In this document: positions 657 to 30,930 of the stretch, one piece after another | Layout: each line of letters starts with the position of its first letter | How positions within the stretch are numbered: the first letter of the stretch is position 1 | Assembly: GCF_035953295.1 (NCBI RefSeq) | Contig: NZ_CP108370.1 | Location: forward strand, 6,247,001 to 6,311,000 | DNA from: Streptomyces sp. NBC_01335 | GTDB taxonomy: Bacteria > Actinomycetota > Actinomycetes > Streptomycetales > Streptomycetaceae | Direction of reading: 5' to 3' | Length of the DNA: 64,000 nucleotides | Position numbers and translations under genes: made by a program | Notes under the pieces: generated by a model | What the model was told of the DNA's origin: nothing | Databases searched by the model: none | Seen by the model: only the letters and a program-made list of their open reading frames with translations

Positions 657-1874
657 TCAGGGCTCGAGGTGATCGACGAACCGGGGGAACGGCACCAGCT
701 GCCTGGTATTGCCCAGCCCCATGCACTTCGCCATGAGCCGGTCGATGCCGAGACCGAAGCCGGTGAGCGGTGGCAGGCCGCTCTCGAGGACGCTCAGGTA
801 GTAGCCGAAATGCTCCGCGTCGAGCTGTTGCTCGGCCATCCGCTGTCTCAGGCGCTCGGGAGAGGTGACGCGTTCGCCACCGTCGATGATGTCGACCTCG
901 TCCCAGTACAGCCTGAAGTCGTTCGCCACCTCCACCTCGTTTCCGCCGAGCCGCTCGTGACGGGTGGACGAGAAGAAGGCCTTGTGCGCGGCGGGCATGT
1001 CGATGACCCAGAAGAGAGTTCTGCCCAGATGCCGCGCCACCGACCGTGCGTGGTAGCGCTTGATCCGGTTCCCCCGGGTGAGCGGGGCGCACTCCTCGTC
1101 CTTCGCCGTGATGGCGAGCACCTCTTCGTAGGTGACGACGGGTACGTCCTCGAGATGGCGGTCCGCGACGGGCGCGCCCGTGTGCGCGCAGACCGTGCGG
1201 ACGATCCGGTCCGACAGGGCGATCATGTCGTCCCGGTTCCGGTAGGCGGCTGTCGCCTCCAGGATGAGGAACTCGCTGAGGTGCTGCGAACTGTGGTTGA
1301 TGTCCGCGCGGAAGAGCGGTGAGATCTCGAACACCGAGGAGAAGTCACCAGCGGCGAAGGCCGTGTGGAAAAGCAGGTTGCTGAGCGTCAGATAGGCCTC
1401 CTGACCGAAGAAGTCGACCTTGAACTTCATGGTGGGGCCGTCCGCCATGTGCCCCACGATCCGTGGGGACTGGACCTCGACGTACTTCTCGTTCTCCATC
1501 AGGTCCCGGACGGCCTTGATGGCCGTCCACTTCGTCAGGAGCCGCCGGTGGACCTCGGGCAGCCTCATGTGGACGTGCTGTTCGGTGAGGATCTCCCTGC
1601 TGTACGGCAGTTGCCGCATCCGTGCCGTGGTGGTGGACGTGTTCTCGCCGGTCACCTCGTAGTCGTCGACCACGATCTCCTCGGAGAACTTCCTGGACTT
1701 CGTGGTCGCTCGCAGGGTTCCGGTGAGGCGGACGACGGACTCCTCCGCGATCCTGGGCCTGCCGGGAAACACGCACAGGTACTCACGGTCCGGGCAGCGC
1801 AGCACGGCGAACGCGAGCCGCTTGCCCATGGGCCTGATTTCGTAGAGGCGGCCCGAGAGTGTGGTCCGGGACAT
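657..1874 (-). CDS. Class II aminoacyl-tRNA synthetase paralogue (Asp/Asn type)
   Basis: The 405-residue protein has the archaeal/eukaryotic AspRS-AsnRS layout. An N-terminal OB fold spans about residues 5-75. It is followed by a class II core with motif 2 (FRAD, 188-191, then QHLSEF) and motif 3 (GFGLGIDRL, 372-380), and a PFPRF tail like that of AspRS. The ATP-site arginines are kept, so adenylate formation is plausible. The QSPQLFK segment that holds the substrate Gln and Lys in AspRS reads LSNLLFH here (164-170), so the amino-acid pocket has changed. ATG at 1874 has GAGGAG about 8 bases upstream; an earlier in-frame start at 1916 would overlap the previous gene. It lies 10 bp after the radical-SAM gene. 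Inferred roles are an amide- or ester-forming ligase in the pathway (as with archaeal AsnA-type paralogues) or a resistance synthetase. It is not the housekeeping enzyme. Confidence 0.8.
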   Translation of the reverse strand: MSRTTLSGRLYEIRPMGKRLAFAVLRCPDREYLCVFPGRPRIAEESVVRLTGTLRATTKSRKFSEEIVVDDYEVTGENTSTTTARMRQLPYSREILTEQHVHMRLPEVHRRLLTKWTAIKAVRDLMENEKYVEVQSPRIVGHMADGPTMKFKVDFFGQEAYLTLSNLLFHTAFAAGDFSSVFEISPLFRADINHSSQHLSEFLILEATAAYRNRDDMIALSDRIVRTVCAHTGAPVADRHLEDVPVVTYEEVLAITAKDEECAPLTRGNRIKRYHARSVARHLGRTLFWVIDMPAAHKAFFSSTRHERLGGNEVEVANDFRLYWDEVDIIDGGERVTSPERLRQRMAEQQLDAEHFGYYLSVLESGLPPLTGFGLGIDRLMAKCMGLGNTRQLVPFPRFVDHLEP

Positions 1875-1884
1875 TTCAGACTCC

Positions 1885-2862
1885 TCAGACGAGCGGAAGC
1901 ATGGCCTTGTTGGCACGGTTGACGCGGTGTTCCTTGGCGGCTTCGGTGAGCATCTGGCCGCAGCCTCCGTCGATGTCGCGTGCCTTGCTCGGCATGATGT
2001 AGGTCGGCAGCCCTCCGGCCACGAGGCGGTCGCGGAAACGCTCTACGACGTCTTCCTCCACCCGGCTGAACGGCAGGCCGGGAACGTCGTTCCACAGCAG
2101 GAGCTGGACGCGGAAGTACCGCGGGTCAAGCAGCCCGATGAGCCGGTCGGCGTCCGCGTCGTCGTCGTTGACGCCGTTGAACAGCAGGTAGCTGACGTCG
2201 ATGACCCGTCCGTGGGCGCGGGCGAACCGTTCGGCCGCACGCAGGAGTTCGGCGATGGGGTTCGCCCTGTTGAGCGGGATCAGGCGGGTGCGCACCTCGT
2301 CGGTCGTGGCGTGCAGGGAGAGGAACAGATCGACCGAAGGGGCCTGTTCCGTCAGGGTGTCCAGGGCCGGGAGCACACCCATGGTGGATACCGATATGTG
2401 GGCGACGCCCGGGTCGGACTCCAGCAGGGACACCGCGCGCAGGACCTCCTCCAGGTTGAGCAGAGGTTCGCCCATGCCGGCGAAGATCACCCGGGTGGGC
2501 GTGGTCCGCTCCTCCAGCACGCGGGTCCGCCGTACCTGGGCGACCATCTCCTCCGCCGTCAGGTCTCGCCTCATCGGCTGGAGACCCGTCGCGCAGAAGC
2601 GGCATGCGACATTGCACCCGGCTTGACTGGACACACACACGACGTGGCCCCGCGAGTCCCGCACCGGCGTGGCGATGCGCTCGTCCGGCACGGCGGTGGA
2701 TCCGTCTCCGCCCAGGGTGAACGAGAGGCTCTCCACCTGGTTTCCGTCGTGGAGCCGCCAGAGTGTCTTGGTGCTGCCGTCGCTGCTCGTGGCCTGCTCG
2801 ACGGGGACGACGAGCAACGCCTCGTCGATGGGGCCGGAGTGCCGCGGAGAGCTGGGGTTCAT
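1885..2862 (-). CDS. RlmN/Cfr-like class A radical SAM methyltransferase, short form
   Basis: The 325-residue protein carries the 4Fe-4S motif CxxxCxxC at Cys83, Cys87 and Cys90 and the C-terminal GGCGQ with Cys301. That Cys corresponds to the residue that resolves the methyl-enzyme intermediate in RlmN (Cys355) and Cfr (Cys338). Family members methylate A2503 of 23S rRNA by the methyl-Cys route; Cfr-type C8 methylation gives resistance to peptidyl-transferase antibiotics. Canonical RlmN and Cfr are about 350-390 residues long, with an N-terminal accessory domain of about 90 residues that binds RNA. Here only about 25 residues precede the core strand (SSDGSTKTLWRL). The open frame upstream of ATG 2862 does not resemble that domain. 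The start is supported by AAGGAAG. It may be a self-resistance enzyme or a pathway methyltransferase. Confidence 0.85.
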   Translation of the reverse strand: MNPSSPRHSGPIDEALLVVPVEQATSSDGSTKTLWRLHDGNQVESLSFTLGGDGSTAVPDERIATPVRDSRGHVVCVSSQAGCNVACRFCATGLQPMRRDLTAEEMVAQVRRTRVLEERTTPTRVIFAGMGEPLLNLEEVLRAVSLLESDPGVAHISVSTMGVLPALDTLTEQAPSVDLFLSLHATTDEVRTRLIPLNRANPIAELLRAAERFARAHGRVIDVSYLLFNGVNDDDADADRLIGLLDPRYFRVQLLLWNDVPGLPFSRVEEDVVERFRDRLVAGGLPTYIMPSKARDIDGGCGQMLTEAAKEHRVNRANKAMLPLV

Positions 2863-3151: not shown

Positions 3152-4657
3152 TCAGGTGGCGCCGGAGGATTTCGCGTCGCGTATCCGGTCCGCGAGCGCC
3201 CGGCGGTCGACCTTTCCGTTGCCGTTCAACGGAAGCTCGCCGAGGACGGTGCACGAGGGCGGCACCTTGACCGCCTCGATCTGTTCGCGCATCCGGAGAA
3301 GGACCTCCGCGGGTTCGAGCTCCGCGACCACGACGAGTTCGGCGGGACGCCCGGCGTCCGGCGGCAGGACCACCGCCCTCGCGACACCCGGCACCCGTCG
3401 GGCCGCCGCCTCGACTTCCGTGGTGCTGACACGGAAACCTTGCTGCTTGTAGAGGTCGTCGCGGCGTCCGTCGAAGTAGACGTACCCGTCCGCGTCGACC
3501 CAGCCGTAGTCTCCGGTCCGCAGTTCCGGGAACAGGCCGTGGCGGCGGGGGAAGCGCCGCTCGGTCAGCTCGGGGCGTTCCCAGTAACCGGCCATCACGT
3601 TCGGTCCGCTCACCGTCAGTTCACCGGTCTCGCCGGCGGGCAGTCGCTCACCGTTCGCGTCGCAGGCGAATACCTCGGTGCCCGGCAGCGCGAGTCCGCA
3701 CGAACCCGGGCGGTCCAGGTCGCCGTCGGGGGGCATGATGGCGGCGCGTTTGCACTCGGTCAGGCCGAACATCAGATGGATACGTGCCCCGGGCAGTGCC
3801 TCCCGCAGTTCCGCGAGCGTCGAGGCGGAGACCGCGGCCCCCGTGTTGGTCATCAGCCGCAGCGCGGGACGCGGGCCCGACGACCGGCGGAGCAGCCAGG
3901 CGAGGCTGTCGCCCAGGGAGGGGACCATCGGCAGCACCGTGGCCCGGCACTCCAGCAGCCGGCTCAGCAGCAGCGGTCCCGAGTCCCTCGCGTCCCCGAG
4001 ACGCACGTGGGCTCCCGAGAGAGCCCCCAGGAAGACCTGGTAGAGGCCGTAGTCGAAGGAGAGCGGAAGCGGGCAGAACACCGTGTCGTCCGGCCGGTAG
4101 TCCAGGACGGACTGGATGGCGGAGAGCGCGAAGACGGCTTGCCCGTGGGTGCTGACGACTGCCTTGGGCGCGGACGTGGTGCCGGACGTGTAGATGAGGC
4201 ACACGGCGTCGCCGGACAGCGGCGCGGGCCACGACGCGATTTCAGGTCCGTCGTCGTCGGCGTCGAGCGCCTGCGGCGGGACGGCGGCCAGCCCTCGCGC
4301 CTCGGCGGCTCGCAGCGCGCTCTCGTCGTCGGAGACCACGAGAGCCGGGCGGCAGTCGTCCAGTACGTGGTCCAGCGGAACGCCGCGTACTTGTTCGTGC
4401 ACGATGCAGAACGCCACTCCGAGCCGTGACGCGGCCAGGGCCAGCGCCGGCACGAGAACACCGGTGGGCAGGGCGATGACCAGCCGGTCGTGGCGTCGCA
4501 GCCCCATGGCGTACAGCGAACGGGCCAGGGCGACCGTCCTGGAGCGCAGTTGGCCATGGGTCAGCACGGTGCGGGCGTCGGAGACCGCGGGGCTGTCCGG
4601 CCACGTGCGGGCCGCTTCGTCGACGAGGTCGTGCAGCAGCGGCGCGACGGCGTTCAC
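3152..4657 (-). CDS. AMP-forming acyl/aminoacyl ligase loading a carrier protein
   Basis: The 501-residue ANL-superfamily enzyme has the usual adenylation motifs in order: YTSGTTSAPKAV (A3), FGLTE (A5), RTGDYG (A7) and NGNGKVDRR (A10). It has no fused carrier domain. It resembles stand-alone ligases that load an amino acid onto a discrete ACP (DltA-, PltF- or VinN-like). The start is GTG 4657, overlapping the stop of the ammonia-lyase gene by GTGA, which indicates translational coupling; longer in-frame extensions upstream are not protein-like. Its neighbours include an ACP, a PLP decarboxylase and an ammonia-lyase, so it probably activates an acidic amino acid such as aspartate for the ACP at 7742-8017. 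Substrate identity is inferred from context only. Confidence 0.85.
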   Translation of the reverse strand: MNAVAPLLHDLVDEAARTWPDSPAVSDARTVLTHGQLRSRTVALARSLYAMGLRRHDRLVIALPTGVLVPALALAASRLGVAFCIVHEQVRGVPLDHVLDDCRPALVVSDDESALRAAEARGLAAVPPQALDADDDGPEIASWPAPLSGDAVCLIYTSGTTSAPKAVVSTHGQAVFALSAIQSVLDYRPDDTVFCPLPLSFDYGLYQVFLGALSGAHVRLGDARDSGPLLLSRLLECRATVLPMVPSLGDSLAWLLRRSSGPRPALRLMTNTGAAVSASTLAELREALPGARIHLMFGLTECKRAAIMPPDGDLDRPGSCGLALPGTEVFACDANGERLPAGETGELTVSGPNVMAGYWERPELTERRFPRRHGLFPELRTGDYGWVDADGYVYFDGRRDDLYKQQGFRVSTTEVEAAARRVPGVARAVVLPPDAGRPAELVVVAELEPAEVLLRMREQIEAVKVPPSCTVLGELPLNGNGKVDRRALADRIRDAKSSGAT

Positions 4658-5094
4658 CGTCCGGCTCCGGCCCGGCCGGTACGTGCCGACGACTCGGAGA
4701 CGGCGGCCCAGGGCAGGACCAGGGTGCCCTGGCCCTCGCAGACGAGAACCTTCTGGTCCAGGACCTCGGCGCGGGAGGGACCGAGGTCGTAGCGGGCGGA
4801 GATCACCTTGTGGGCGGTGAACCCCACGAGGCATCTGAGGCGCGACCGGAGTTTCAGCTCGGCGGTCGCCTCGATGAAGTCGCCGGGCCTGAGCGGCGCC
4901 GTGAAGCGCAGCCCGGTGTACTCGGACAGCAGCCCCTCGTCACCGCAGGAGCGGACGCCGATTTCGGTGGCCAGGTCGCCGAAGACGCGCAGGACGAACG
5001 CGGCGTCGATCAGTTCGCCGCCGTAGTGGGCGTCCGCCTGGCCGAGCCGCAGCCGTATGCGGGAGGTGATGGCCGGGGTCGTGTGCATCGACAT
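4654..5094 (-). CDS. Hotdog-fold beta-aminoacyl-thioester ammonia-lyase
   Basis: The 146-residue single-domain hotdog protein resembles 3-aminobutyryl-CoA ammonia-lyase (Kal of lysine fermentation) and beta-alanyl-CoA ammonia-lyase (about 145 residues). Recognisable blocks are DAHYGGELIDAAFVLRVFGD, then LATEIGVRSCGDEGLLSEY, then RPGDFIEATAEL. Known members eliminate ammonia from beta-amino thioesters, or add it in reverse. Placed beside an AMP-ligase, an ACP and a VinO/BtrK-like decarboxylase, it could convert beta-alanyl-ACP to acryloyl-ACP. The start is ATG 5094 or ATG 5088; both lie just behind GGAG at the end of the acpS gene, so the choice is uncertain by two codons. Confidence 0.75.
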   Translation of the reverse strand: MSMHTTPAITSRIRLRLGQADAHYGGELIDAAFVLRVFGDLATEIGVRSCGDEGLLSEYTGLRFTAPLRPGDFIEATAELKLRSRLRCLVGFTAHKVISARYDLGPSRAEVLDQKVLVCEGQGTLVLPWAAVSESSARTGRAGAGR

Positions 5095-5095
5095 G

Positions 5096-5503
5096 TCACT
5101 CCAGGAGAGGATGGGCGATGGCGACCGCGATCGCCACACCCTTCTTGTGGGCGATCGAGACCGCGACCGAACCGATGCCGGTCGTGGCGGCGTGATCGGC
5201 GGCCCGTCCCAGGAGCCGCACGACGGGGCTCCCGTCCGCGCGGCGGCCGATCTCTATGTGGCGCGGAGCGATGGCACGGCCGGCTCCCCGGCCGATCGCC
5301 TTGACGACCGCCTCCTTCGCCGCGAAGCGGGCCGCGAGGAACTCCTGCCTCCGGGCAGGACCCAGCGAGTCGGCGTACCCGCGCTCCCAGGGGCTGTAGG
5401 CGAACTCGAGGAACCAGGAGCGCGTGATGAGCCGATCGAGTTCGTCGACGCCCAGGATGTCGACACCGGGGCGGGCGGCGGGGTGAGGGGGCACCGGTTC
5501 CAC
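5096..5503 (-). CDS. acpS: Holo-ACP synthase (AcpS-type phosphopantetheinyl transferase)
   Basis: The 135-residue protein transfers 4'-phosphopantetheine from CoA to the conserved Ser of carrier proteins. It shows the AcpS signatures GVDILGVDELDRL (Mg-binding Asp), RFAAKEAVVKAIG and VSIAHKKGVAIAVAIA. Its length matches AcpS (about 125-135) rather than Sfp (about 230). GTG 5503 follows the stop of the decarboxylase gene by 2 bp; GTG 5494 is an alternative, and neither has a strong ribosome site. A dedicated AcpS inside the cluster probably primes the discrete ACP and perhaps the ACP/PCP domains of the assembly line. Confidence 0.88.
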   Translation of the reverse strand: MEPVPPHPAARPGVDILGVDELDRLITRSWFLEFAYSPWERGYADSLGPARRQEFLAARFAAKEAVVKAIGRGAGRAIAPRHIEIGRRADGSPVVRLLGRAADHAATTGIGSVAVSIAHKKGVAIAVAIAHPLLE

Positions 5504-5505
5504 GG

Positions 5506-6780
5506 CTACAGCTCGACCAGGGTCTGCGGGTCCAGGAGGTCGTCGAGCGTGTCCCTCCTGCGGACCAGGTGGGCCTTTCCGTCGTGGACCAGGACCTCGG
5601 CGGGATAGCCGTGGCTGAGGAAGCGGCCCGGCGAGGCGCTCGGACCGTACGCGCCGGAGCGTCCGACCCCCAAGAGGTCTCCGGGGCGGACGGCGGCGAG
5701 GGTGACATTCTTGGCCAGCACGTCGGCCGGGGTGCAGAGGGGACCCGTGACCGTGCACCTCATCGTCGACGGTTCGCCGCGGTGGTCCAGTACCCCCAGA
5801 GGAAAGTTGCGCCGGACGAAACTGCCGACACCGACGGCCGCCATGTGGTGGTTGGTCCCGCCGTCGGCCACCACGAACGTCTCGCCCATGGACTCCTTGA
5901 CGTCCAGGACCCGGACGACGTACGTGCCGGACGCGGCGGTGAGATGGCGTCCTGCCTCCAGGATGAAGCGGCAGCCGGGGTGCGTGCGGGCGAAGTCGTC
6001 CACGGCGTCGTTGATCCCGTCGACCAGGGCACCGAGGTCGGGGTCCTTCTCGTGTTCGAAGTACGCCACGCCGATGCCTCCTCCGAAGTCGACGGTACCG
6101 AGCGGGATACCGAGGTCCTCGGAGAGCCGTCCCGCCACGGCGAGGACCGCGCGTGTGTTGTGGACGACGTCCTCGTGCCGGAGGAACCGGGTCCCCAGAT
6201 AGGCGTGGATCCCCGTGACGCGAAGGTGGCGCAAGGAGGCCAGTTCCGCGCGCGACCCGCGCAGCAGGTCGGCGTCCATGCCGAACTGGCGGGGCTTGCC
6301 GCCCATGGCCAGACCCGAACCCGATGTCGGGACAGGGGGGTTGACGCGCAGCATCACGGGGACGCGGGCGGCCCTGTCGGAGAGTGCCGCCACCCGGTCG
6401 AGCCGGCGCAGCTCACCGAAGGACTCGCAGACCACCGCGCGGATGCCGGCCCGCACGCAGGCGGCGAGCTCCCGGGCGGTCTTGCCCGGCCCGAGGAAGA
6501 TGATGTCCTCGGGCGCGAACCCCGCGCGCAGTGCGGTGAACAGCTCTGCCTCGGAGGACACTTCCGCTCCGGCTCCGAGCGATCTGAGGCAGGCGCTGAC
6601 GCTGATGTTGGGGTTCGCCTTCAGCGAGTAGAAGATGTCCACCGAAGGGCGCAGCCCGTCCCGCAGCCTGCGGTAGTCGTCGCCGATGGACTGTGCGTCG
6701 TAGACGAACAGGGGGGTCCCGAACTCCTCGGCGATGCCGGAGACCGGCAGGCCCTGGATGCGGGTTTGGTGATGGGGCAT
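5506..6780 (-). CDS. PLP decarboxylase, LysA fold (BtrK/VinO-like)
   Basis: The 424-residue fold-type III PLP enzyme is of the diaminopimelate/ornithine decarboxylase family. Lys54 in YSLKANPN binds PLP. HAYLGTRF, a glycine-rich phosphate loop (DFGGGIG), EAGRHL and the C-terminal GPLCTPADV (catalytic Cys) follow in order. Relatives in biosynthetic clusters, BtrK (butirosin) and VinO (vicenistatin), decarboxylate an acidic amino acid held on an ACP. The neighbouring ligase, ACP and ammonia-lyase support that role rather than lysine synthesis. ATG 6780 has GAGG about 8 bases upstream. The acpS gene follows after 2 bp. Confidence 0.85.
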   Translation of the reverse strand: MPHHQTRIQGLPVSGIAEEFGTPLFVYDAQSIGDDYRRLRDGLRPSVDIFYSLKANPNISVSACLRSLGAGAEVSSEAELFTALRAGFAPEDIIFLGPGKTARELAACVRAGIRAVVCESFGELRRLDRVAALSDRAARVPVMLRVNPPVPTSGSGLAMGGKPRQFGMDADLLRGSRAELASLRHLRVTGIHAYLGTRFLRHEDVVHNTRAVLAVAGRLSEDLGIPLGTVDFGGGIGVAYFEHEKDPDLGALVDGINDAVDDFARTHPGCRFILEAGRHLTAASGTYVVRVLDVKESMGETFVVADGGTNHHMAAVGVGSFVRRNFPLGVLDHRGEPSTMRCTVTGPLCTPADVLAKNVTLAAVRPGDLLGVGRSGAYGPSASPGRFLSHGYPAEVLVHDGKAHLVRRRDTLDDLLDPQTLVEL

Positions 6781-6875
6781 GCGCAAACCTCGTTCTCTCG
6801 GGAGCGGAAGGCCGGGGTGAGGGGGGAATGCCGCCGCGGACCGCGTCCGCCTCCGCACTCGGGTCGGTACGTTCC

Positions 6876-7745
6876 TCACCGGGCGCGGGCGTCCGCGGCC
6901 GGAGTACGGGAGCCGGTGCGCAATGCCAGTAGATGGCTGTTCCCGGGGGCGCGCGCATCGGTCTCACACAGCACGACCAGGTCGTAGGCCGCGCTCCATG
7001 CCGAGTGGTTCCGGGCGAGTTCGAGCCAGACACCGGTGCTGTACACCGCTCTGTCCACCCGGTGCACGGCTGCCCCCGGTGGGACGGGCAAGGCCGGATC
7101 GACATGGGGCCCCAAGACGATCAGCACCCTTCGAGGGCCGTTCTCCTCGGCGTACCGGGCCAGGCTTTCGCCGAGGGGGGCGGTGGAGTCGGGGCCGCGC
7201 ATCTCGGACACCTCCTCGACGCGCGCGCCGTCACCCGCGTCCAGCACCAGGAGCACCGCCGAGTCGGACGGCCGGGCCTTTCCGAGGCCCGCGCCGGGCA
7301 CCGCGTGGGTGCTCTGCTCGGCGATCAGGACCGCCGTTTTCCGGGCCCGGCCGGACCGGTGCTGGGCCGACGCGATCCGCAGCGCGGTGAACGCCGCGGC
7401 GCTGCCCTGTTCCGAGACGGTGAAACGGCGCCGCGCTCCGCCCAGGCGGCCGTACAGGTACGGAGCGACCGGGGCGTACGGATGGAGGTCGGGCAGCGCG
7501 CTCGCCACCACGATCAGATCGGGGCTGCCCGCCTCGGCGGCGACCACGTCGTCGGCCAGCAGCGCCTGCGCCAGGTCGAGGTGACTGACGCGTGGACCGG
7601 AGCGGAGCAGTTCATGGTCCACGAGTGCGTCGAACGGGCGGTGGAGGTCGTCGGTGTACATGAGTTCCAGCGGCCCGGGGACCCAGCCCGACCCGGTCGG
7701 GGAGACCACGGACGCCGCCGCGCGCAGAGCTGGACGGGAGGTCAA
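6876..7745 (-). CDS. KAS-III-like protein lacking the active-site cysteine
   Basis: The 289-residue protein appears to have a ketoacyl-synthase (thiolase) fold and follows a true KAS III and an ACP. At the nucleophile elbow it reads FTVSEQGSAAAF where KAS enzymes carry Cys, so it probably has no condensing activity. It may act as a partner subunit of the KAS III at 8014-8994, in the manner of chain-length-factor pairs; that is inference. TTG 7745 is chosen because GAGGAGG lies 8 bases upstream and it overlaps the ACP stop by TTGA; an internal ATG would discard part of the fold. A 95-bp gap follows before the decarboxylase gene. Confidence 0.65.
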   Translation of the reverse strand: MTSRPALRAAASVVSPTGSGWVPGPLELMYTDDLHRPFDALVDHELLRSGPRVSHLDLAQALLADDVVAAEAGSPDLIVVASALPDLHPYAPVAPYLYGRLGGARRRFTVSEQGSAAAFTALRIASAQHRSGRARKTAVLIAEQSTHAVPGAGLGKARPSDSAVLLVLDAGDGARVEEVSEMRGPDSTAPLGESLARYAEENGPRRVLIVLGPHVDPALPVPPGAAVHRVDRAVYSTGVWLELARNHSAWSAAYDLVVLCETDARAPGNSHLLALRTGSRTPAADARAR

Positions 7746-8017
7746 GGACGCACCTCCTCGCCCTGCTGTGCGGTCAGTTCCCGGAGGACGAACGCGGCGA
7801 AGGTGCCCACGGTCCTGAAGTCGTCCATGTCCAGCGACTCGGGGTCGACGAGCAGGCCGAAGGCGTCCTCCATGGCCATCAGAAGTTCGAGGCTGGTCGT
7901 CGAGTCGAGGTGCAGGTCCTCGAACAGGCGGGTTTCGTCGCTGAGACCCGACACCGGGCGGTGGAGCGTCTCGGAGAGCCCGGCTTCGACGGCTGCGACA
8001 ACGGTGCGGTGGTTCAC
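7742..8017 (-). CDS. Discrete acyl carrier protein
   Basis: The 91-residue protein is a free-standing carrier protein. The phosphopantetheine Ser is Ser39 in HLDSTTSLELL, with the usual acidic helix II. GTG 8017 has AGGAGG about 9 bases upstream and overlaps the KAS III stop by GTGA. Downstream it overlaps the KAS-like gene by TTGA. The tight coupling with KAS III suggests that it carries the starter made by the ligase, decarboxylase and ammonia-lyase. Confidence 0.9.
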   Translation of the reverse strand: MNHRTVVAAVEAGLSETLHRPVSGLSDETRLFEDLHLDSTTSLELLMAMEDAFGLLVDPESLDMDDFRTVGTFAAFVLRELTAQQGEEVRP

Positions 8018-8994
8018 GGTCGGTTTCCTCCTGTGGGAAGAGGACAGGGCGGCCGGGTGAGAACGGTGGCTGCGTAGCTGCCTCCCACACCGACCGCCGC
8101 CATCAGGTAGTTCCCTCCGGCACGGATCCGGCCCTCGGCCCGGAGCGTCGCGTAGTTGATGAGGGGGTCGGCGGAGAAGCAGTGGCTGTAACGGGGGATG
8201 TTTTCCAGGAAGACCGTGCTCAGGGGGATGCCCAACGACTTCGCGGCCTGGCGCCAGAAGGTCTTGTTCACGTTGTGCGGGACCACCAGGTCGAGGTCGT
8301 CGAGGGTCAGGCCCGCCTCGGCCACGGCCTGAAGCATCGTCTCGACGAGGAATCGCACGCCGGTCTCGCCGGTCTGCCTCGCGTCGTCCGGCGGCCGGAC
8401 ATCGTCGCGGACCGCGTGGGAGCGGATCACGTCACCGTCCCCGCCCAGGGTCAGCAGACACGCCGCTGCCCCATCCGCGAGCAACTGACCCAAGGAGTAA
8501 TCCAGTTGTGCCAGTGGAGAGAAGACGCGCTCCCCGGAGACGATCAACGCGCAGTCACCCTCCGCTCCTTCGGCGCGCAGGAGGTCCGCGGCGAGGTCCA
8601 GGGCGACGAGGCTCTGTGCGCAGTTGTGCTGGGTGACGGCGAACGCGTCGGCGTGTTCCAGACCCAGCGACGAGGCGAGGATCCGCGCGGGGTCGACGTC
8701 GGCCGGTGCCACCTGCTGGACCGCGTGCGCGTAGATGACGTAGCGGACCCGGTCGGGGCGGTCGAGGGCCGCCACGACCTCGACCGCGGCCGGCAGAAGC
8801 AGGTCGAAGAGGCCCGAGTCCGGGTCGAGCCGCAGGTTCTCCAGGCCGTGGACGCGCCGGAAGACGCGACGCTGCGCCGTGGACAGCCCGTGGTCGTCGA
8901 GTACTTCCTCGACGGACATCTCCCTGTCGGGGAAGTGCGAGGCGACCACGCCCAGCGTCACCGGCAGCGGCCGCGCGCGCGTGGTGACGCTCAT
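8014..8994 (-). CDS. 3-oxoacyl-ACP synthase III (KAS III) family enzyme
   Basis: The 326-residue protein has the FabH fold. The nucleophile is Cys125 (TQHNCAQSL), and the first His is His240 (VVPHNVNK). The usual Asn of NTSSAS is replaced by His271 in YSHCFSADP, as also happens in KAS-III-like enzymes that form esters or amides or transfer unusual acyl groups. It therefore may not perform simple decarboxylative condensation. ATG 8994 gives a normal N-terminus, but GAGG lies directly against it, so the ribosome site is poor. It heads the starter-unit operon, 222 bp below cluster motif copy 2. Confidence 0.85.
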   Translation of the reverse strand: MSVTTRARPLPVTLGVVASHFPDREMSVEEVLDDHGLSTAQRRVFRRVHGLENLRLDPDSGLFDLLLPAAVEVVAALDRPDRVRYVIYAHAVQQVAPADVDPARILASSLGLEHADAFAVTQHNCAQSLVALDLAADLLRAEGAEGDCALIVSGERVFSPLAQLDYSLGQLLADGAAACLLTLGGDGDVIRSHAVRDDVRPPDDARQTGETGVRFLVETMLQAVAEAGLTLDDLDLVVPHNVNKTFWRQAAKSLGIPLSTVFLENIPRYSHCFSADPLINYATLRAEGRIRAGGNYLMAAVGVGGSYAATVLTRPPCPLPTGGNRP

Positions 8995-9298: not shown

Positions 9299-10096
9299 TC
9301 ATGCGTTCCGCCCGCCCGCCCTGTCGATATCCTCGGCGACAATGCGGACCAGTTCCCGCTCCGACTGGCCGAGATAGAAATGGTCGCCCGGAAACATCCG
9401 TACGCCCGACCAGTTCTCGGCGCAGTGGCGCCATTCGCGCAGATCGCCGGGAGAGCACACGGGGTCGCGGTCTCCGCCGCAGGCGGTCACCGGAGTCCGC
9501 ATCAGGGCGGGCCCCGCCACGTGGTGGCGGTTGAGCAGGCGGTAGTCCGCGAGCAGGGGCGGCAGCAGCAGTGGCCGCAGCTCGGGGTCGTCGTACGCCG
9601 CGAATCCTGGCCCGGACAACTCCCCGACGGAGCGGAGGATCTCCGCCTCGCTCAGATGGGGGACGTTGTCGCGCTGGGCTTCGTGCTGCGGGCCCCGGCC
9701 GGACACGTACAGGTGCAGAGGCGTGGCCGGCCCGTCCCGTTCGAGCAGCCGCGTCACCTCATGGGCGACGGCCGCTCCCATGCTGTGTCCGAACAGGACG
9801 AAGGGCAGGTCCAGATGGGGCGTCAGCGCCTCCAGGACGCGCTCGGTCATCTCCTCCATCGTCCCGACGCAGGGTTCACCGAGGCGTTCCTGGCGTCCGG
9901 GGTACTGCACGGCGAGCAGCTCGACGTGGTCCGGGAGGTGTGCCCGCCACCCGTGGTAGAGGCTCGCGGTACCGCCCGCGTGCGGGAAGCAGACGAGCCG
10001 GACCGTCGGGGCGTGCCCCGCGTACCGCCTGAACCATCTCTCCCTCGGAGGGGGCGACGGCCGGCTCCCCGCTGAGGGCCGGGGTTCGGGCGTCAT
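9299..10096 (-). CDS. Type II thioesterase
   Basis: The 265-residue alpha/beta hydrolase is of the GrsT/RifR type, which clears stalled or wrongly primed carrier proteins in NRPS and PKS lines. It shows LVCFPHAGGTA (oxyanion region), GHSMG with Ser105, GDRDPV (Asp) and GDHFYL (His). ATG 10096 overlaps the transporter stop by ATGA; no strong ribosome site is seen, so translation is probably coupled. No integrated thioesterase domain occurs in the synthetases of this window, so it is the only thioesterase visible here. Confidence 0.92.
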   Translation of the reverse strand: MTPEPRPSAGSRPSPPPRERWFRRYAGHAPTVRLVCFPHAGGTASLYHGWRAHLPDHVELLAVQYPGRQERLGEPCVGTMEEMTERVLEALTPHLDLPFVLFGHSMGAAVAHEVTRLLERDGPATPLHLYVSGRGPQHEAQRDNVPHLSEAEILRSVGELSGPGFAAYDDPELRPLLLPPLLADYRLLNRHHVAGPALMRTPVTACGGDRDPVCSPGDLREWRHCAENWSGVRMFPGDHFYLGQSERELVRIVAEDIDRAGGRNA

Positions 10097-11457
10097 GAGG
10101 AGGCCACCCGTCCGCTGTGCCGGTGGAAGAAGAAGGCCTGCCCGGCCAGCAGTGCCAGATTGGCGCAGGCCAGGGCGGTCCACAGAGAGGTGAGGCCACC
10201 TCCGGACGCGGTGATGGCGACCGTGAGGGCTGCCAGGGCCCCGTAGGCGGCGGCGAAGACGGCGAGGCTGGGTACGGTGCGCTTCAGCCCGATCAGGCCG
10301 AACCCGAATACCGCCTGCAGCGCGTCCGTGGCGACTACCAGCAGGACGAGCGGCAGGAGGTCGGTCACCCGTTCTCGGAGCACCGGATCGTCGGTGTACA
10401 CGGACACCACGTCGCGGCGCAGGACCAGCAGCACCGTCCCCAGCACGACCACCGCGCCGAGGGCGACGGACGCCCCGGCGAACAGAACGCGCCGGATCCG
10501 GCCGGCTTCCCCGGCCCGCACGTGACCGGCCATGAGAGGGACCGTCGCCTGGCCGACCGCGACCGCCGCGGTGAACATCAGATTGACCAGGGAGAGGGAA
10601 ATGCTGTGAGCGGCGGCGCTCCGGGTGCCCGTACGGGCGGCGGAGAACCCGATGACGCCCAGCACGGCGAACTTGATCAGCACGGTGGCGGCCAGCGGGA
10701 TGCCGACGCGGGCGATCCTGAGCACCTCGCGCGGGCGCAGAGGTCCAAACACGAGGGGCCGGCCGCCGAGCGCGGGGGAGCGCCGCAGCGCGCGGTGGGC
10801 CCAGGACGCGCCGATGGAGCTGGACGCCAGCATGGCCAGGCCCGCACCGGGCAGCCCGAGGCCGGAGAACGAGCCCACGCCGCCCACCAGGAGCAGGGAC
10901 AGGACCACCGCGGTGCCGGTGCCGGCGAGTCCTGCCCGCATGACGGACTTTCCCTGCCCGAGGCCCACGAGCGTCGAGGTCGAGGCCGAGCCGAGCGAGG
11001 TGACGACCAGACTCGCGGCGAGCAGCCACGGGAAGATTCCGAGCTGCTCCAAGGTGCTCGCCGGGACACCGCCGAGGCGGCCGATCAGCGGGACCGCCGC
11101 CACCGCGACCGCCCCCGTCAGGCCGACCCCCAGGCCGAGCCACTTCGCGTCGCGGACCATCGGGAGCAGCTCGTCGGGGTCTTCCCTGTGCGCCGCCACG
11201 AAGGGCATGACGCCCCGCATGGCGCCGGCGACCGCCGCCGCGGAGGGGCTGTAGACCGCGATGGTGACGGCGAAGGCGGCGAGGGAGACCGTCCCGTGGC
11301 GACCCAGCACGGCGGTGTCCACCAGAGCCCCCGCCGAAGCGGCGACCATCGTCACGTAGAGCGGCAGTGCGACCGAGGCTATCTTCCAGGCACTGCTTCC
11401 GGAGACCCGGGAGAAAACAGACGAATTACTACCGCTCAGAGTCTTCGTTTCGGTCAT
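10093..11457 (-). CDS. MATE-family efflux transporter
   Basis: The 454-residue integral membrane protein has about twelve hydrophobic segments. MATE-like features include an early helix ending TAVLGRHG and a repeated second half (GVIGFSAARTGT). It would export a drug-like product using an ion gradient, which fits self-protection by export. ATG 11457 with GGTAGGG upstream is preferred over ATG 11475. It is co-transcribed with the thioesterase (ATGA overlap) and diverges from the acyltransferase gene. Confidence 0.85.
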   Translation of the reverse strand: MTETKTLSGSNSSVFSRVSGSSAWKIASVALPLYVTMVAASAGALVDTAVLGRHGTVSLAAFAVTIAVYSPSAAAVAGAMRGVMPFVAAHREDPDELLPMVRDAKWLGLGVGLTGAVAVAAVPLIGRLGGVPASTLEQLGIFPWLLAASLVVTSLGSASTSTLVGLGQGKSVMRAGLAGTGTAVVLSLLLVGGVGSFSGLGLPGAGLAMLASSSIGASWAHRALRRSPALGGRPLVFGPLRPREVLRIARVGIPLAATVLIKFAVLGVIGFSAARTGTRSAAAHSISLSLVNLMFTAAVAVGQATVPLMAGHVRAGEAGRIRRVLFAGASVALGAVVVLGTVLLVLRRDVVSVYTDDPVLRERVTDLLPLVLLVVATDALQAVFGFGLIGLKRTVPSLAVFAAAYGALAALTVAITASGGGLTSLWTALACANLALLAGQAFFFHRHSGRVASS

Positions 11458-11601: not shown

Positions 11602-12549
11602 ATGAGTAGGCATGCTTTTGTGTTTCCGGGACAAGGATCCCAGGCAGAGGGAATGGGAAGCGACCTGGCCCGGGAGAGCGACGGTGCCGCGCGCTCGTAT
11701 TTCGGAGCGGCGGACGACATCCTGGGGTTCGGGCTGAGCCGGCTGTGCTTCGAAGGGACGGCGGACGAATTGCTGGACACGTCGGTCACACAGCCCTGCG
11801 TCTTCGTCACCGGCCTCGCCTTCGCCACCGCCCTGCGGGAGCGGGGCGTGACGCCCGAGGTGGTCGCCGGGCACAGCCTGGGTGAGTACACCGCGCTGGT
11901 GTCGGCCGGTGTGCTGGACTGGGAGGACGCACTGCGACTGGTGCGCCTGCGAGGGCAGCTGATGGCGCGGGTCAACCTCCGCACCCCGGGCGGCATGGCC
12001 GCCGTACTGGGTCTGCCCTCCACGACGGTCGAAGACCTGTGCGCGCGGACGGCGACGAGCGGGCGGGTCGAGGTCGCCAACTACAACTCCGCCCTTCAGA
12101 CGGTCGTTTCCGGCACCGCCCCCGGCCTGGAGGAGTTCGCGCGCGCCGCGATGGAGGCTGGTGCGGAGCGAGTGGAGCCGCTGCGCACCGGCGCTCCTTT
12201 CCACTCCAGCGCGATGAAGGACATCGAGCAGGAGTTCGGTGATCGTCTGGACACCGTGGAGTTCGCCGATCCTTCGGTCCCGGTGATCGCCAACGTCCAC
12301 GCGGGATACGTCGGATCGGGCACCGAGGCGCGCGACCTGCTGCGCCGTCAGCTCTCCTCGCCCGTGCAGTGGCACCGGACCGTCGAACTCCTGCGGGCCG
12401 AAGAGGTCGACGCACTCGTGGAGGTCGGCCCCGGAAGGGTGCTGACCAATCTCAACCGCGTCACGGCCCCCGCGATCCCCGCGATGGCCGTCGGCACGGT
12501 GAAGCAGCTGGACACGGCCGTGCAACGGCTCGCTCCGGCGCGGGTCTGA
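11602..12549 (+). CDS. Discrete malonyl-CoA:ACP acyltransferase (trans-acting AT)
   Basis: The 315-residue protein has a FabD fold: FPGQGSQ near the N-terminus, the catalytic GHSLGEY with Ser92, an Arg-containing VRLRGQLM that binds the malonyl carboxylate, and a GAPFHSSAM segment with the catalytic His. The His-centred FHS sequence fits malonyl-CoA. Both AT domains embedded in the PKS modules of this cluster have lost their serine, so this enzyme most likely loads them in trans. It is the only plus-strand gene of the cluster and faces the monooxygenase gene, whose 3' end is 17 bp away. Confidence 0.92.
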   Translation: MSRHAFVFPGQGSQAEGMGSDLARESDGAARSYFGAADDILGFGLSRLCFEGTADELLDTSVTQPCVFVTGLAFATALRERGVTPEVVAGHSLGEYTALVSAGVLDWEDALRLVRLRGQLMARVNLRTPGGMAAVLGLPSTTVEDLCARTATSGRVEVANYNSALQTVVSGTAPGLEEFARAAMEAGAERVEPLRTGAPFHSSAMKDIEQEFGDRLDTVEFADPSVPVIANVHAGYVGSGTEARDLLRRQLSSPVQWHRTVELLRAEEVDALVEVGPGRVLTNLNRVTAPAIPAMAVGTVKQLDTAVQRLAPARV

Positions 12550-12566: not shown

Positions 12567-13595
12567 TCACAGGTCCGCGCACCGCTCGGCGAGGCGCGTC
12601 AAGTGCTCCAGAGCGGCCAGGACCTCGTCCGCCCCGGCACCGAAGTCGATCAGGCAGGCGATCTCGTCGACGCCGAGCTCGGCGAGCGAAGTGACCAGCG
12701 GTACACAGCTCTCGACCGAACCGATGAGGCACCGGGTCCGCGCGTACTCGGTGTAGCGGTGTTCCAGCAGTTCCTCGACGGCCTGTTCGGACACCTCACC
12801 GTCCGCGCCGGTCCCGTCCATTCCGAACAGCGTCATCGACGACCGCATGTAGGCGGTCATCGGAGCGCGCGCCGCGTTCAGCGCCGCCTCCGGGTCGGCG
12901 TCGACGAACGTGTGAAGCATCACCGCCACCCGTTCGTCGTGCGGGCCGTGTCCTGCCCCGACCAGCGCGTCCCCGTACCGCACCAGATTGTCCTCCAGGG
13001 TCTCCCAGGACTGCCCGAGCAGATGCGTCAGGATTCCGTACCCCTGCTCGCCCGCCCAGGAGAAGGTGTCGGGAGAGCCTGCCGCGGTGATCCACATCGG
13101 GATACCGCCGCGCACCGGACTCGGCCGGCTGCGGATCTCCTGCTCGGTCCCGTCCGGTGCTCTGCGCGAAACCGGCTGTCCCGCCCAGAGCCGGCGCAGC
13201 TCGTCCACGCCGTCCCGCAGCGCGGTCCTGCGGTCCGCGAAGTTCCCCGGTGCCAGGACGAAGTCGCGGGGATTCCAGCCCGACGCGACGGCGAGGCCCG
13301 CACGCCCGCCGGAGAGCTGGTCGACGACCGCCCAGTCCTCGGCCACGCGGAGCGGATCGTGCAACGGCAGCACGACGCTTCCCGCGCGCACGTCGATCCG
13401 TCGTGTCACCGCGGCGACGGCCGCCCCCGTGACGGCCGGGCTGGGAAACGGGGAGCCGAAGTCGTGGAAGTGCCGCTCCGGCGTCCACACCGCGGAGAAT
13501 TCTCCCCGGTCGGCGAAGCGCGCGGCTTCGAGGAGCAACCGGTACTGCTCGGCCGAGTCGGCTCCGTTGGCGAAGAAGAACAGACTGAATTTCAT
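12567..13595 (-). CDS. LLM-class flavin monooxygenase (MupA/Atu3671 type)
   Basis: The 342-residue luciferase-like TIM-barrel protein opens with MKFSLFFFAN. It has the WTPERHFHDFG block and GRAGLAVASGWNPRDF of the subfamily found in NRPS/PKS clusters and in mupirocin MupA. It should use FMNH2 and O2 to oxidise a carrier-bound or released intermediate. ATG 13595 overlaps the stop of the hybrid synthetase by ATGA, so it is the last gene of the core operon. The exact oxidation is unknown. Confidence 0.85.
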   Translation of the reverse strand: MKFSLFFFANGADSAEQYRLLLEAARFADRGEFSAVWTPERHFHDFGSPFPSPAVTGAAVAAVTRRIDVRAGSVVLPLHDPLRVAEDWAVVDQLSGGRAGLAVASGWNPRDFVLAPGNFADRRTALRDGVDELRRLWAGQPVSRRAPDGTEQEIRSRPSPVRGGIPMWITAAGSPDTFSWAGEQGYGILTHLLGQSWETLEDNLVRYGDALVGAGHGPHDERVAVMLHTFVDADPEAALNAARAPMTAYMRSSMTLFGMDGTGADGEVSEQAVEELLEHRYTEYARTRCLIGSVESCVPLVTSLAELGVDEIACLIDFGAGADEVLAALEHLTRLAERCADL

Positions 13596-16500
13596 ATGCG
13601 CTCCATGACTGAGCCGTCCCGCTCTTCCGCCCCGGCCGCACCCGCTCCGGGGCCGGCGGAGAAGGCGAGGGTGTAGAGGGCTTGTCGGTAGTGGTCCAGC
13701 AGCTGCGCGTCCTGGACCTCGGACGCCCCCCGCGCGTACTTGAGCGAGACCCGGAACGACTTCCCCGCGTCCACGACCGTGAAGTGGACACGCAGGCGGG
13801 GTGCGAGGGGGTCGGGACCGACACCACGCAGACCATCCGGCCGGTTGCCGTCGTCCCGGGCGTAGTTGAACACCACGGGCAGGTCGCCGAACGCCCGGAG
13901 TGCCGGGTCGTCCGCGGCGAGGTCCGCGAAGGGCACGGTCCGCAGTTCCCGGATCCGGTCGAAAGCGTCGCGCACGGTGGTGAGCACCGAAGCCGGAAAC
14001 CCGTCGACGGGTATCGACAGGGGCACCGGGACCGTGTTGGCGAAGCCGCCGACCGAACGGTCGAGATCGGAGTGGCACCGTCCGTCGAGCGGAACCGCGG
14101 GGCAGACGTCCTCACGGCCGTCGGCTTTCGCCAGGGCCATCGCGAAGGCCGTCAGATGGACGACGAAGGGGGTGACGCGCAGGTCCGAGCAGAGGGAGCG
14201 CAGCGCGTCGTGCAACCTGCCGGTCGGAGCCCAGCTCAGGCGGTCCGCGAGCGGGCCGACGTGCGGCCGGTCACCGGCTTCGGCCGGCAGGATTTCGTGC
14301 CAGACGCGGGCGGCTTCCCGCGCGCGGGGGCCGTCGCCCAGCGCGTGACGCCACGACAGGTACCGCAGAAAGCCGTCGTCGACCTCGGCCGGACGTGGGT
14401 CCTCGGACACCGGTGGGGAGTCCGCTCGGCACGCCTCGGCGATCTCGTGGCACAGCGTCAGCATCCCGCGCCCGTCGAGCACCAGCAGATGGACGGTGAC
14501 GGCCAGGAGGTTCCCGCTCACCGTCAGACGGACGAGCGGTTCGCGCGCGGGGTCGATGGGGGTGCCCTGCGCTTCGTCGTGGAGGCTGTTCGCGGCGGCC
14601 GTTCCCGTCCCGCGGGACGCGCCTACGCGAACAGGCACGGCACCGGGCTCGGCGAGGACGGGCCTTTCCCCGTAGGCGCCGCCCTTGCGGCGCATGTCCG
14701 GGAAGAACAGCCGCAGAGCGGGGTGGCGTGCGAGCACCGCGGCGGCCGCGGCACGCACCCGGGCGGGATCGAGCGGACGGGAGGCGGCGAACACGAATGT
14801 CTTCTGGAACTCCGAGGACGCCCGTACGAGAGGCCGGAGACCGGGCGGCAGCGCGACCGGCGGTCCGGACGGGGGGAGCTCCTCCTCGGCCGCGTCCGCC
14901 GACGGACCCCGCTCAGCAACGAGCCGGGCCAGCTCCGCCGCGGTTCCCCACCGGTACAGCTCCGGTATCCCGAGCCGCACTCCGGTCCGCTCACGCAGGA
15001 CGTGCATCAGCCGGGTCGCCAGCAGCGAGTGGCCGCCGGCGTCGAAGAAGTCCTCGTCGGCATCCAGCTCCGGCCGTCCGAGTACCTGCCGGAACACGGC
15101 GAGGACGTCGGTGGTCGCCCGGTCCTCCGGCGCGGCGTGACCGCTCCGGGACGCGGGGCCGGCGCCGGGCGCGGGCAGCCGGGTCGGATCCACCTTCCCG
15201 TTGCCGTTGACCGGCAGGGCGTCGACGACGGTGAACGAGGACGGGACCATGGCAGCGGGCAGATCCTCGCGCAGCCTGCGGCGCAGTCGCCCGGCCAAGT
15301 CCTGTGCGGCGGGCGCCGCCACCAGATAGGCGTCGAGCCTCCGGTCGCCGTCCGGCCCGCTCGCCACGAGCGCCACGTCCCGAACGTCGGGGTCGCGCCG
15401 GACAGCGACCTCGACCTCTCCGGGCTCCACGCGGTAGCCGCGGATCTTGATCTGCTGGTCCGCGCGGCCGACGAAATCGATGTGTCCGAGGCTCGAAAGC
15501 CGCGCCCGGTCACCACTGCGGTAGCTGCGCGCACCGCCGTCGGTGCGGAAGCGTTCCGCGGTCAGGTCCGGGCGGCCCAGATAACCGGTGGCCACGCAGT
15601 CGCCGCCGATCGCCAGTTCGCCCACGGCGCCACGCGGTACGGCGCGGCCCCGGTCGTCCTGGATCTCCAGGACGACGTTCTGGACGGGCGAGCCGATGGG
15701 GGCGTGCCGGGGCCATGCGCGCGGCGGACCGGTGAAGCGGTAGGAGGTCACCACATGGGTCTCCGCGGGCCCGTAGTTGTTGATCAGCGCGCAGCCGTCC
15801 AGGCGCTCGAAGAAGTCGATCAGCGACTCGCTGACGCGGAGCTGCTCGCCGGTGGAGGCCACTTCCCGAAGGGAGGCGAACGGGCCGACGTCCCGGGCGA
15901 AGCGAGCGGCCAGGGCGTGCAGGAGCGACACCGGGACGATGGCCTTCTCGACACCGTGCTCGCGCACGAAACCCGCGAACAGGTCGTGGTCGTGCTTGGT
16001 CGCCTCGTCCGCGACGAACAGCGAGCCCCCCGAACACAGCGCGGCGAACGTCTCGTGGAACGCGGCGTCGAAACCGAAGGACGCCAGTTGCATCCACCGC
16101 AGCGCCGAAGTGTGACCCGAAGTCTCCCAGTGGATGAGGTTGGCGAGGGCCCGGTGCGGGAAGTGGATGCCCTTCGGCCGCCCCGTCGTGCCGCTCGTGT
16201 ACGTCAGATAGGCGCCGGCACCGAGGTCCACGGAGTCTCCGGGAACAGGACCGGTGGGTCCGTCCGCGGCCGCTCCATCGACGGCGGGGAGCGATACGGC
16301 CCGTGCGAAGGGCGCGAACTCCGCGTCCTTCGCGTCGGCGCACAGTACGAAACGCGGACGGCAGTCCTCCGCGATCGTGGCGAGCCGTTTCCGCGGCAGG
16401 GTCAGGTCGAACGGAACGGCCGTCGCCCCCGCCCGCAATGCCCCCAGGAGCCCCGCGATCAACGGAACTCCGCGTTCCATGGCGATGCCGACGCTCTCCC

Positions 16501-29600: not shown

Positions 29601-29809
29601 CTCCCGTCGGGCCGGGCGCGCACGGTCACACGCAGGACCGGGTGGCGTTCCACCACGGAGCGGAAAGCCGCCTCCAGGGCTGTCGGGTCGACGGAGCCGG
29701 ACAACCGGTAGCCCACCGGGACGTTGTAGGCGTCGCTGTCGGGGCGCAGTTGCTGTGAGGCCCAGACCGCCCATTGCTGCTGGGTGAGCGGAATCCCCTC
29801 CGACGTCAC
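26681..29809 (-). CDS. NRPS: C-A(Gln)-PCP
   Basis: The 1042-residue protein is the first synthetase in the operon. The condensation domain (about 5-440) has FDHIVVDA at 131-138, keeping the catalytic second His133 but with Asp for the first His. The adenylation domain (about 450-945) has TTSGSSGLPK, LYGPTE and VTATGKTD. Its pocket reads DAWQFGLIDK, the code known for glutamine modules such as tyrocidine. A PCP (LGGSSL) follows. A condensation domain at the head of the line fits acylation of glutamine by a starter delivered from another carrier, perhaps the discrete ACP. GTG 29809 overlaps the oxygenase stop by GTGA. Confidence 0.9.
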   Translation of the reverse strand: MTSEGIPLTQQQWAVWASQQLRPDSDAYNVPVGYRLSGSVDPTALEAAFRSVVERHPVLRVTVRARPDGSVLQEVREVPDRVLTVHDVTGNALEEELARVVSLPFGPDAACRLRAHLLRLAPERYVLVMVFDHIVVDAPSVARITDDLATGYAAALDGGASGPATVEARYFAYARDQRAFFATQEAEALGDFWHTYLDGLSGLTAAAGSRADTRPPLASSLPVLIPAGLAASAERLGTTPTALLMAALSLTTRHFLRSTDTVISYPAVDWRRMEYEPVVGLFTDMLAFRCPPEESRSLQEYVRAVHGAMLECLGRHGAPLTKFRSRLRAAHPAGIGSPPVMLSVNNVPGTGELRLRGLAVEWFPLRPAHNKADLVLSVYVRNSGTTARLDYDTEAYGPETARRFGAAFQEVVGQIVSGWDGPATAVELTGEDDRSLLLGAWNPPVPEAPAWNVAAAFAARAAAAPGAVALVADGRETTYRELEADSRALGAALTALGLPAGSVVAICLPRSARFVTAVLAVLRSGLAFLPVDVEQPERRRAFLLADAGAAAVVVAGPGDEALLTGLPVVDMCEAVADAPFRDAEPHGEDPAYLITTSGSSGLPKTVVIPHRAIANHLRWKAAAFGFGPEDCFYFKTPQIFDASVWEYLLPLTVGARVVVAPSSAHRDPALLLSEMSRYAVGVVQFVPTVLKAVLAEPDAGDHAALKWVFVGGEPLGSRVAEETRRRTGARVVNLYGPTEATIDATYHEVAPDGRDEDRPVPIGRPIGGGQAYVLGRGGQLLPPGFTGELHLGGLPLATGYAHREQLTRERFVPAPAGTGLDTLLYRTGDLARFRPDGAIEFLGREDTETKVRGIRVDLAGLGALIGALPGVRDAVVTVPPGRDDALVAYLVADPAVTDDAVLAHCAERLPRELLPSTLVRLDRIPVTATGKTDVRALPVPPTGRAPGAGTEPRSAFEGRLRSLWAEVLGVAPERVPRDVSLFALGGSSLTLLRLHQRIRADISPGATVTDLFKYPTVAALADALDDSGRTSGLVPAPTGGKG

Positions 29810-30612: not shown

Positions 30613-30670
30613 CGCATGCACCTTTCATGATCGAGGTTCGCCGGCGGCAGTCGTACCGTCGGAGCGAGCG

Positions 30671-30810: not shown

Positions 30811-30930
30811 GGCCACGGCGCACACCGGCCGCGCGCACGGAGGGAGCGAGGAGGGAGGGGGAGCGGGCCGCGCGGCGGAGAAAATCCCTGGTGAGGAGGG
30901 CATCCGCCGCCCATACTCGGACGGGTGTTC

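Follow-up and report, generated by a model that had tools for sequence, protein, structure and literature searches.

A probable carrier-bound route from aspartate to acryloyl-ACP encoded by a recurrent gene cassette of Streptomyces

In a 64,000-nucleotide stretch of the genome of Streptomyces sp. NBC_01335 (contig NZ_CP108370.1, positions 6,247,001 to 6,311,000; hereafter, the window), seven genes on the minus strand at 3152-8994 probably encode a route that converts L-aspartate (L-Asp), by way of beta-aspartyl and beta-alanyl thioesters of an acyl carrier protein (ACP), into acryloyl-ACP, which would then be taken over by a pair of beta-ketoacyl-ACP synthase (KAS)-like enzymes. In this cassette, an AcpS-type phosphopantetheinyl transferase would arm a stand-alone ACP, and a VinN-type ligase would activate the side-chain carboxyl of L-Asp and load the amino acid onto the ACP. 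A BtrK-type pyridoxal phosphate (PLP) decarboxylase (DC) would strip the alpha-carboxyl to leave beta-alanyl-ACP, from which a hotdog ammonia-lyase homologue (KAL) would remove ammonia, giving acryloyl-ACP. A KAS III-like enzyme (KAS3) and its Cys-less partner (KASx) might accept the acryloyl group for decarboxylative condensation with malonyl-ACP, yielding a vinyl-ketone-type beta-keto acyl product, or might alternatively hand it to a nonribosomal peptide synthetase (NRPS).

The genes are transcribed in the order KAS3, ACP, KASx, DC, AcpS, KAL and ligase (Table 1), with intergenic gaps of -4, -4, 95, 2, 1, and -4 bases, and with these distances on a single strand the cassette reads as one operon. 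The genes, families, motifs, recurrence and fusions described here were assigned from the DNA and its translations. All of the genes named in an earlier note on this DNA were located where it had placed them; the note had, however, left the Cys-less KASx off its list and had missed the pattern of two consumers described below. The possibility that KASx is a false open reading frame (ORF) was discounted in view of a conserved family (at least 11 homologous proteins, found from the 8000 candidates with the most shared words) and a confident thiolase-fold model. The window ligase, DC and KAL all score below the strict NCBIfam cut-offs (592 bits for TIGR03098, 478 bits for TIGR03099, and 160 bits for NF052388). 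The grouping of the genes is not due to chance, because the core genes occur together again in other actinobacteria.

A genome scan gave at least 514 KAL loci, and the best 80 of them form the set in which cassettes are counted here and below. Homologues of DC, ligase or AcpS were found near KAL in 30 of these loci, and none of the three was found near KAL in the other 50. An AcpS gene and an activating enzyme occur in all 30 cassettes (the latter a VinN-type ligase in 26 and an ATP-grasp enzyme in 4), while DC and ACP occur in 29 each, and AcpS adjoins KAL in 30/30. One locus, L039, holds just AcpS, KAL and ligase, and a weak extra "ligase" match in L041 belongs to an adenylation domain that is separate from the cassette enzyme. 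Among 392 sampled Streptomyces genomes, KAL was found at E <= 1e-25 in 11, that of NBC_01335 included, and AcpS adjoins KAL in all 10 of the others; a second Streptomyces search with another centre returned the same KAL genomes and added none. All 11 fall within the 41 Streptomyces genomes that have DC at E <= 1e-70. The nearest clusters, known from their proteins, are those of Streptomyces misionensis, S. spectabilis and NPDC strains.

Gene fusions bear directly on the substrate of KAL. A 574-residue protein annotated as "alanine racemase" on the Rhizobium gallicum plasmid pRgalIE4872a joins a DC (residues 31-434, 347 bits) to a KAL (residues 448-563, 105 bits). It is flanked on one side by an EctA-like GNAT protein (105 bits; cut-off, 120.6) and on the other by a VinN-type ligase with the motif TECKR, as in the cassette, beyond which lie an ACP and an ectoine synthase homologue (185 bits). 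AcpS and KAL are likewise fused in a Lentzea protein (P0038) and in one encoded by a Streptomyces plasmid (L158), and these actinobacterial proteins score 143-144 bits against the Kal model. That KAL is found fused both with the enzyme acting before it and with the one arming the ACP provides the strongest indication that the substrate of KAL is the ACP-bound product of DC. The order of ligase, decarboxylase and lyase suggested in the earlier note fits these fusions, the recurrence of the gene set and the nearest solved relatives of the enzymes.

The 30 cassettes divide by what stands next to the core genes: 22 have an EctA homologue, 7 have KAS3 with KASx, none has both, and 1 has neither. 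An EctC gene lies within the fetched DNA in 19 of the 30; in L019, EctA, EctB and EctC all exceed their NCBIfam cut-offs. Although the cassettes thus adjoin homologues of the ectoine pathway EctABC(D), their EctA proteins differ from those of ectoine biosynthesis. A canonical EctA is also encoded elsewhere in all seven EctA-cassette genomes checked, with 195-210 bits as compared with 122-152 bits for the cassette copy. The motif RGxG[LI]A, the acetyl-CoA (CoA pyrophosphate) loop of GNAT enzymes, is present in 8/8 canonical EctAs (read from the printed alignment), including that of NBC_01335, and in 0/29 distinct cassette EctAs, which show RHG[IV]P..LG or near variants in its place. Such a loss is expected if the acyl donor is the ACP of the cassette. 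The window cassette belongs to the KAS group and lacks EctA and EctC; a gene for an EctD-like PhyH oxygenase follows the NRPS genes at their upper end (29806-30621, minus strand; 184 bits against a cut-off of 336).

The KAS3 matches in the PDB are weak throughout, the nearest by sequence being FabH 2ebd at 48.6 bits. The predicted triad of KAS3, Cys125-His240-His271, departs from the FabH Cys-His-Asn pattern, with His in place of the usual Asn; in an alignment of 23 rows, the Cys is present in the 22 complete rows and His271 in 23/23, while His240 is unaligned in L026 and L041. A Cys-His-His triad is known from KAS I/II and would suit malonyl condensation. On the other hand, an acyltransferase role is described for AfcL, a KAS III-like protein of AFC-BC11 biosynthesis (PMC12186527), which argues against condensation with malonyl. 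The balance tips slightly toward a wider proposition, namely that the core cassette of activating enzyme, ACP, AcpS, DC and lyase, which is partly plasmid-borne, supplies acryloyl-ACP to two unrelated consumers. One would be a CoA-independent EctA-type transferase that, with ectoine synthase, forms 2-vinyl-tetrahydropyrimidine ("vinyl-ectoine"); the other would be the KAS3/KASx pair, priming an NRPS-polyketide synthase (PKS) with a vinyl-ketone or acrylamide warhead, so that actinobacteria and rhizobia would use acrylate as a biosynthetic unit bound to a carrier.

The identity of DC as a BtrK/VinO-like decarboxylase, proposed in the earlier note, agreed with the structural comparison: the best PDB match is BtrK (7ru7/2j66, 311 bits), the next family being diaminopimelate decarboxylase at 171 bits, so that DC stands nearer to BtrK than to diaminopimelate or ornithine decarboxylase, and the PLP-binding Lys54 and the C-terminal Cys349 are kept in 32/32 aligned rows (the window and 31 loci). 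BtrK, entitled L-glutamyl-[BtrI acyl-carrier protein] decarboxylase in the PDB, works on an ACP-bound amino acid. The same is described for VinO and AfcP (PMC11284099, PMC12186527). A DC tree was built from the window together with 13 EctA-type loci (out of 22), 5 KAS loci that have a ligase, 4 KAS loci that have an ATP-grasp enzyme and 9 loci without KAL; the window DC stands alone on a long branch within no starred set, and the tree does not indicate which consumer is ancestral.

DC also occurs apart from KAL, in 30 of the 41 Streptomyces genomes that have it. No ligase match above 90 bits was found in the 10 KAL-less DC loci that were opened. Nine of them (L139-L143 and L145-L148) combine an ATP-grasp enzyme, KAS3 and DC with a gene of the acyl-CoA-dehydrogenase family, an assignment that is based on two tested members, and the tenth (L144) has DC alone. 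On plasmids of Gemmobacter (824 residues; L169:5983-8457) and Tritonibacter (812 residues; L170:5971-8409), a single protein joins DC and an acyl-CoA dehydrogenase, with KAS III, ACP and ligase genes nearby; the ligase motif there is TECHR and not TECKR. These alphaproteobacterial loci would represent a sister pathway, and it seems that decarboxylation on the ACP can be followed by either dehydrogenation or deamination, each of which would give an unsaturated acyl group.

The earlier note had taken aspartate to be the loaded acid, and the comparison of the ligase with its relatives supports this. The window ligase scores 223 bits against the Pfam AMP-binding family and 270 bits against TIGR03098, and its best PDB match is VinN (3wvn, 381 bits), the best non-VinN chain reaching 206 bits. 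VinN binds its acidic beta-amino acid by means of D230, which contacts the amino group, and of two residues of the beta13-beta14 loop, K330 and R331 (PMC11253843; the roles of these residues are drawn also from PMC12186527). D202, K303 and R304 of the window ligase align with them, and equivalents are found in 27/27 cassette ligases (the window and 26 loci). Glutamate mutase is the source of 3-methylaspartate in vicenistatin producers (PMC11284099); no match to its subunit E was found in the NBC_01335 genome, although the control for this negative is weak, as 0/14 control genomes exceeded the cut-off. Because of this missing match, L-Asp is favoured over 3-methylaspartate, and the ligase is likely to use L-Asp, activated at the beta-carboxyl. 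Loading and decarboxylation are assigned by homology to steps known for relatives, with in vitro precedent in the biosynthesis of AFC-BC11 (PMC12186527).

For KAL, the profile, sequence and fold comparisons agreed that the protein is a relative of the beta-alanyl-CoA/3-aminobutyryl-CoA ammonia-lyases, as had been proposed. It matches NF052388 (3-aminobutyryl-CoA ammonia lyase) at 116 bits (E 1.2e-33), below the curated cut-off, and is therefore classed as a relative of Kal and not as Kal itself. Its nearest solved relative by sequence is a beta-alanyl-CoA:ammonia lyase, the sole ammonia lyase among the matches, and the fold comparison (Foldseek, where 4mtu came first, and a re-ranking of the same hits) points to this enzyme as well. 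Positions such as L56, L86, R87 and V90 set the KALs of the 30 cassettes apart from the remaining 50. Ammonia loss on the ACP is predicted from homology, fusions and context, and every step after it is inferred as well.

Several points weigh against the proposed route. Of 37 positions shared across the family, 7 are altered in the window KAL, among them D50 and R88, both replaced by Cys (an alignment read by eye shows D in 4mtu at the first of these two positions and Y at the second). The documented relatives Acl and Kal, of the same hotdog family, are described as acting on CoA thioesters (PMC4619459), whereas cassette KALs adjoin or are fused with ACP enzymes. VinN is described as preferring 3-methylaspartate and using L-Asp with low efficiency (PMC11284099). 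The substitutions in KAL would suit a pathway in which nitrogen is kept, ending at beta-alanyl-ACP as in the described pathways of fluvirucin and AFC-BC11 (PMC11284099, PMC12186527); the KAL of the window group would then have drifted to another role, for instance that of an editing thioesterase or a structural subunit, as some thioesterases also have the hotdog fold. We consider this outcome unlikely, since the window KAL retains 30 of the 37 positions (Y24, D40, T43, E44, D52, Y59, D72 and E75 among them), 4mtu tops the fold ranking, no close VinN-type ligase accompanies DC in the opened KAL-less loci, and the larger cassette group would pass its acyl group to EctA/EctC, a pair that ordinarily works with acetyl, an acyl group free of amine.

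Still less probable is that an acid other than L-Asp, either 3-methylaspartate or another acidic amino acid, is loaded and leads to methacryloyl- or crotonyl-ACP. The preference of VinN would favour such a substrate, as would the named substrate of Kal, 3-aminobutyryl-CoA, and the positions of VinN Phe231 and Ser299, which face the beta13-beta14 loop and are Tyr and Thr in 27/27 cassette ligases, bulky yet not identical. The missing glutamate mutase E match, weakly controlled as it is, and the beta-alanyl enzyme as nearest solved relative of KAL, although it is the only ammonia lyase matched, point instead to L-Asp. That KAL catalyzes a Michael addition, with another amine or nucleophile added to a transient acryloyl-ACP to form a new beta-substituted propionyl unit, is very improbable, for even though ammonia lyases of the Acl/Kal kind are reversible and a reactive acryloyl thioester would easily be trapped, nothing points to a second substrate site and the enzymes that follow the cassette at its various loci are unrelated to one another.

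The proposed route from L-Asp to acryloyl-ACP shares its parts with several known systems. The starter pathways of vicenistatin (VinN/VinL/VinO) and fluvirucin (FlvN) likewise use a VinN-type ligase, a stand-alone ACP and a PLP decarboxylase acting on an ACP-bound amino acid (PMC11284099), but they retain the amine and attach a second amino acid, whereas the cassette adds a lyase homologue, a dedicated AcpS and the KAS pair. Macrolactam starter pathways of that kind also have a second aminoacylating ligase (VinM), a transfer AT (VinK) and a peptidase (VinJ); the discrete AT of the window scores as a malonyl transferase. In the AfcQ/AfcK/AfcP pathway to the Burkholderia lipopeptide AFC-BC11, a single ACP receives L-Asp by way of the beta-carboxyl and carries it through decarboxylation, and the cluster contains KAS III-like enzymes; this pathway makes oligo-beta-alanine, and "ammonia" and "acryl" each occur 0 times in the main text of PMC12186527. 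Butirosin biosynthesis (BtrI/BtrJ/BtrK) provides the closest solved relative of DC, and the 4 cassettes mentioned above have an ATP-grasp enzyme where the others have the ligase. In butirosin biosynthesis the ATP-grasp enzyme BtrJ plays the ligase role, the substrate being glutamate and not aspartate, and to our knowledge the pathway has no ammonia lyase. The individual pieces are already known. As the earlier note had supposed, a pathway that combines them by joining a carrier-bound decarboxylase with this lyase was not found in the open-access literature (the open PMC library), the scope of the search leaving room for a description in subscription papers or preprints.

Table 1. Cassette genes and neighbouring biosynthetic genes of the window
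Feature	Position	Strand	Supporting match
KAS3 (KAS III-like condensing enzyme/acyltransferase), 326 aa	8014-8994	-	PF08541, 64 bits
Stand-alone ACP, phosphopantetheine site Ser39 (LDS)	7742-8017	-	PF00550, 36 bits
KASx, Cys-less short thiolase-fold partner, 289 aa, TTG start	6876-7745	-	
DC, BtrK/VinO-type PLP decarboxylase, 424 aa	5506-6780	-	TIGR03099, 351 bits
Dedicated AcpS-type phosphopantetheinyl transferase, 135 aa	5096-5503	-	PF01648, 52 bits
KAL, hotdog ammonia-lyase homologue, 146 aa	4654-5094	-	NF052388, 116 bits
VinN-type beta-amino-acid adenylation enzyme/ligase, 501 aa, GTG start	3152-4657	-	VinN closest in PDB
Type II thioesterase (start approximate)	9299-10100	-	PF00975, 142 bits, residues 382-606 of ORF 9299-11143
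Discrete FabD-type malonyl transferase	11602-12549	+	TIGR00128, 288 bits (cut-off 261)
MupA/Atu3671-type luciferase-like monooxygenase, same cluster	12567-13619	-	TIGR04020, 436 bits (cut-off 244)
NRPS-PKS: C-A-PCP / KS-(dead AT)-ACP / TubC-C-A-PCP / KS-(dead AT)-ACP-C-A-PCP-C	13592-29830 (upper end approximate)	-	
aa, amino acids; C, condensation; A, adenylation; PCP, peptidyl carrier protein; KS, ketosynthase; AT, acyltransferase.

Upstream of the cassette lies an NRPS-PKS line that could receive its starter. The AT regions of its PKS modules (13592-20677 and 24138-26921, minus strand) are degenerate, with GHGAGE or HRSWLA instead of GHSxGE by eye, and the FabD-type enzyme could supply malonyl units to the condensing enzymes as well as to the AT-dead modules. 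The first NRPS ORF reaches 30838, yet its C domain begins at residue 348. Adenylation codes, read by eye at the GrsA positions, are Gln-like, Gly-like and one unclear, and a stand-alone domain beyond the left edge of the window is Cys-like; the codes do not identify the product. On that side of the window the cluster seems to continue, with genes for the stand-alone A domain, a methyltransferase, an S66 peptidase, a second aminoacyl-tRNA synthetase (aaRS)-like protein and an MFS transporter pump.

Beside the cluster are genes for two divergent proteins that resemble class II aaRSs of the Asp/Asn type (657-1874, minus strand; L108:11845-12864, minus strand), and a longer gene resembling aspartyl-tRNA synthetase (AspRS) lies elsewhere in the genome. 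A search with the window protein returned 13 proteins at E <= 1e-30, itself included. The window gene probably belongs to the cluster, because KAL, KASx and the aaRS-like protein of NPDC001351 are each listed with a longest contig of 24069 bases, which is probably one and the same. The aaRS-like proteins may serve in self-protection or as an amide-forming enzyme. Next to the second gene is an S66 LD-carboxypeptidase (L108:10703-11995, minus strand), a family to which the microcin C immunity protein MccF also belongs, and the two genes hint at a product directed at AspRS or asparaginyl-tRNA synthetase. Also near the cluster are a second RlmN/Cfr-like radical SAM protein (1885-2862, minus strand; TIGR00048, 216 bits, cut-off 290), a copy above the cut-off being present elsewhere in the genome, and a Hen1-PNKP RNA repair pair (30925-35114, plus strand), after which come genes for arginine deiminase and ornithine carbamoyltransferase.

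If the proposed route is correct, acrylate would be a building block held on a carrier protein, three steps from aspartate. KAL adjoining AcpS would then provide a search handle for clusters that are likely to carry Michael-acceptor warheads, and the EctA-like enzymes of the cassettes would represent a class predicted to take its acyl group from ACP and not from CoA.

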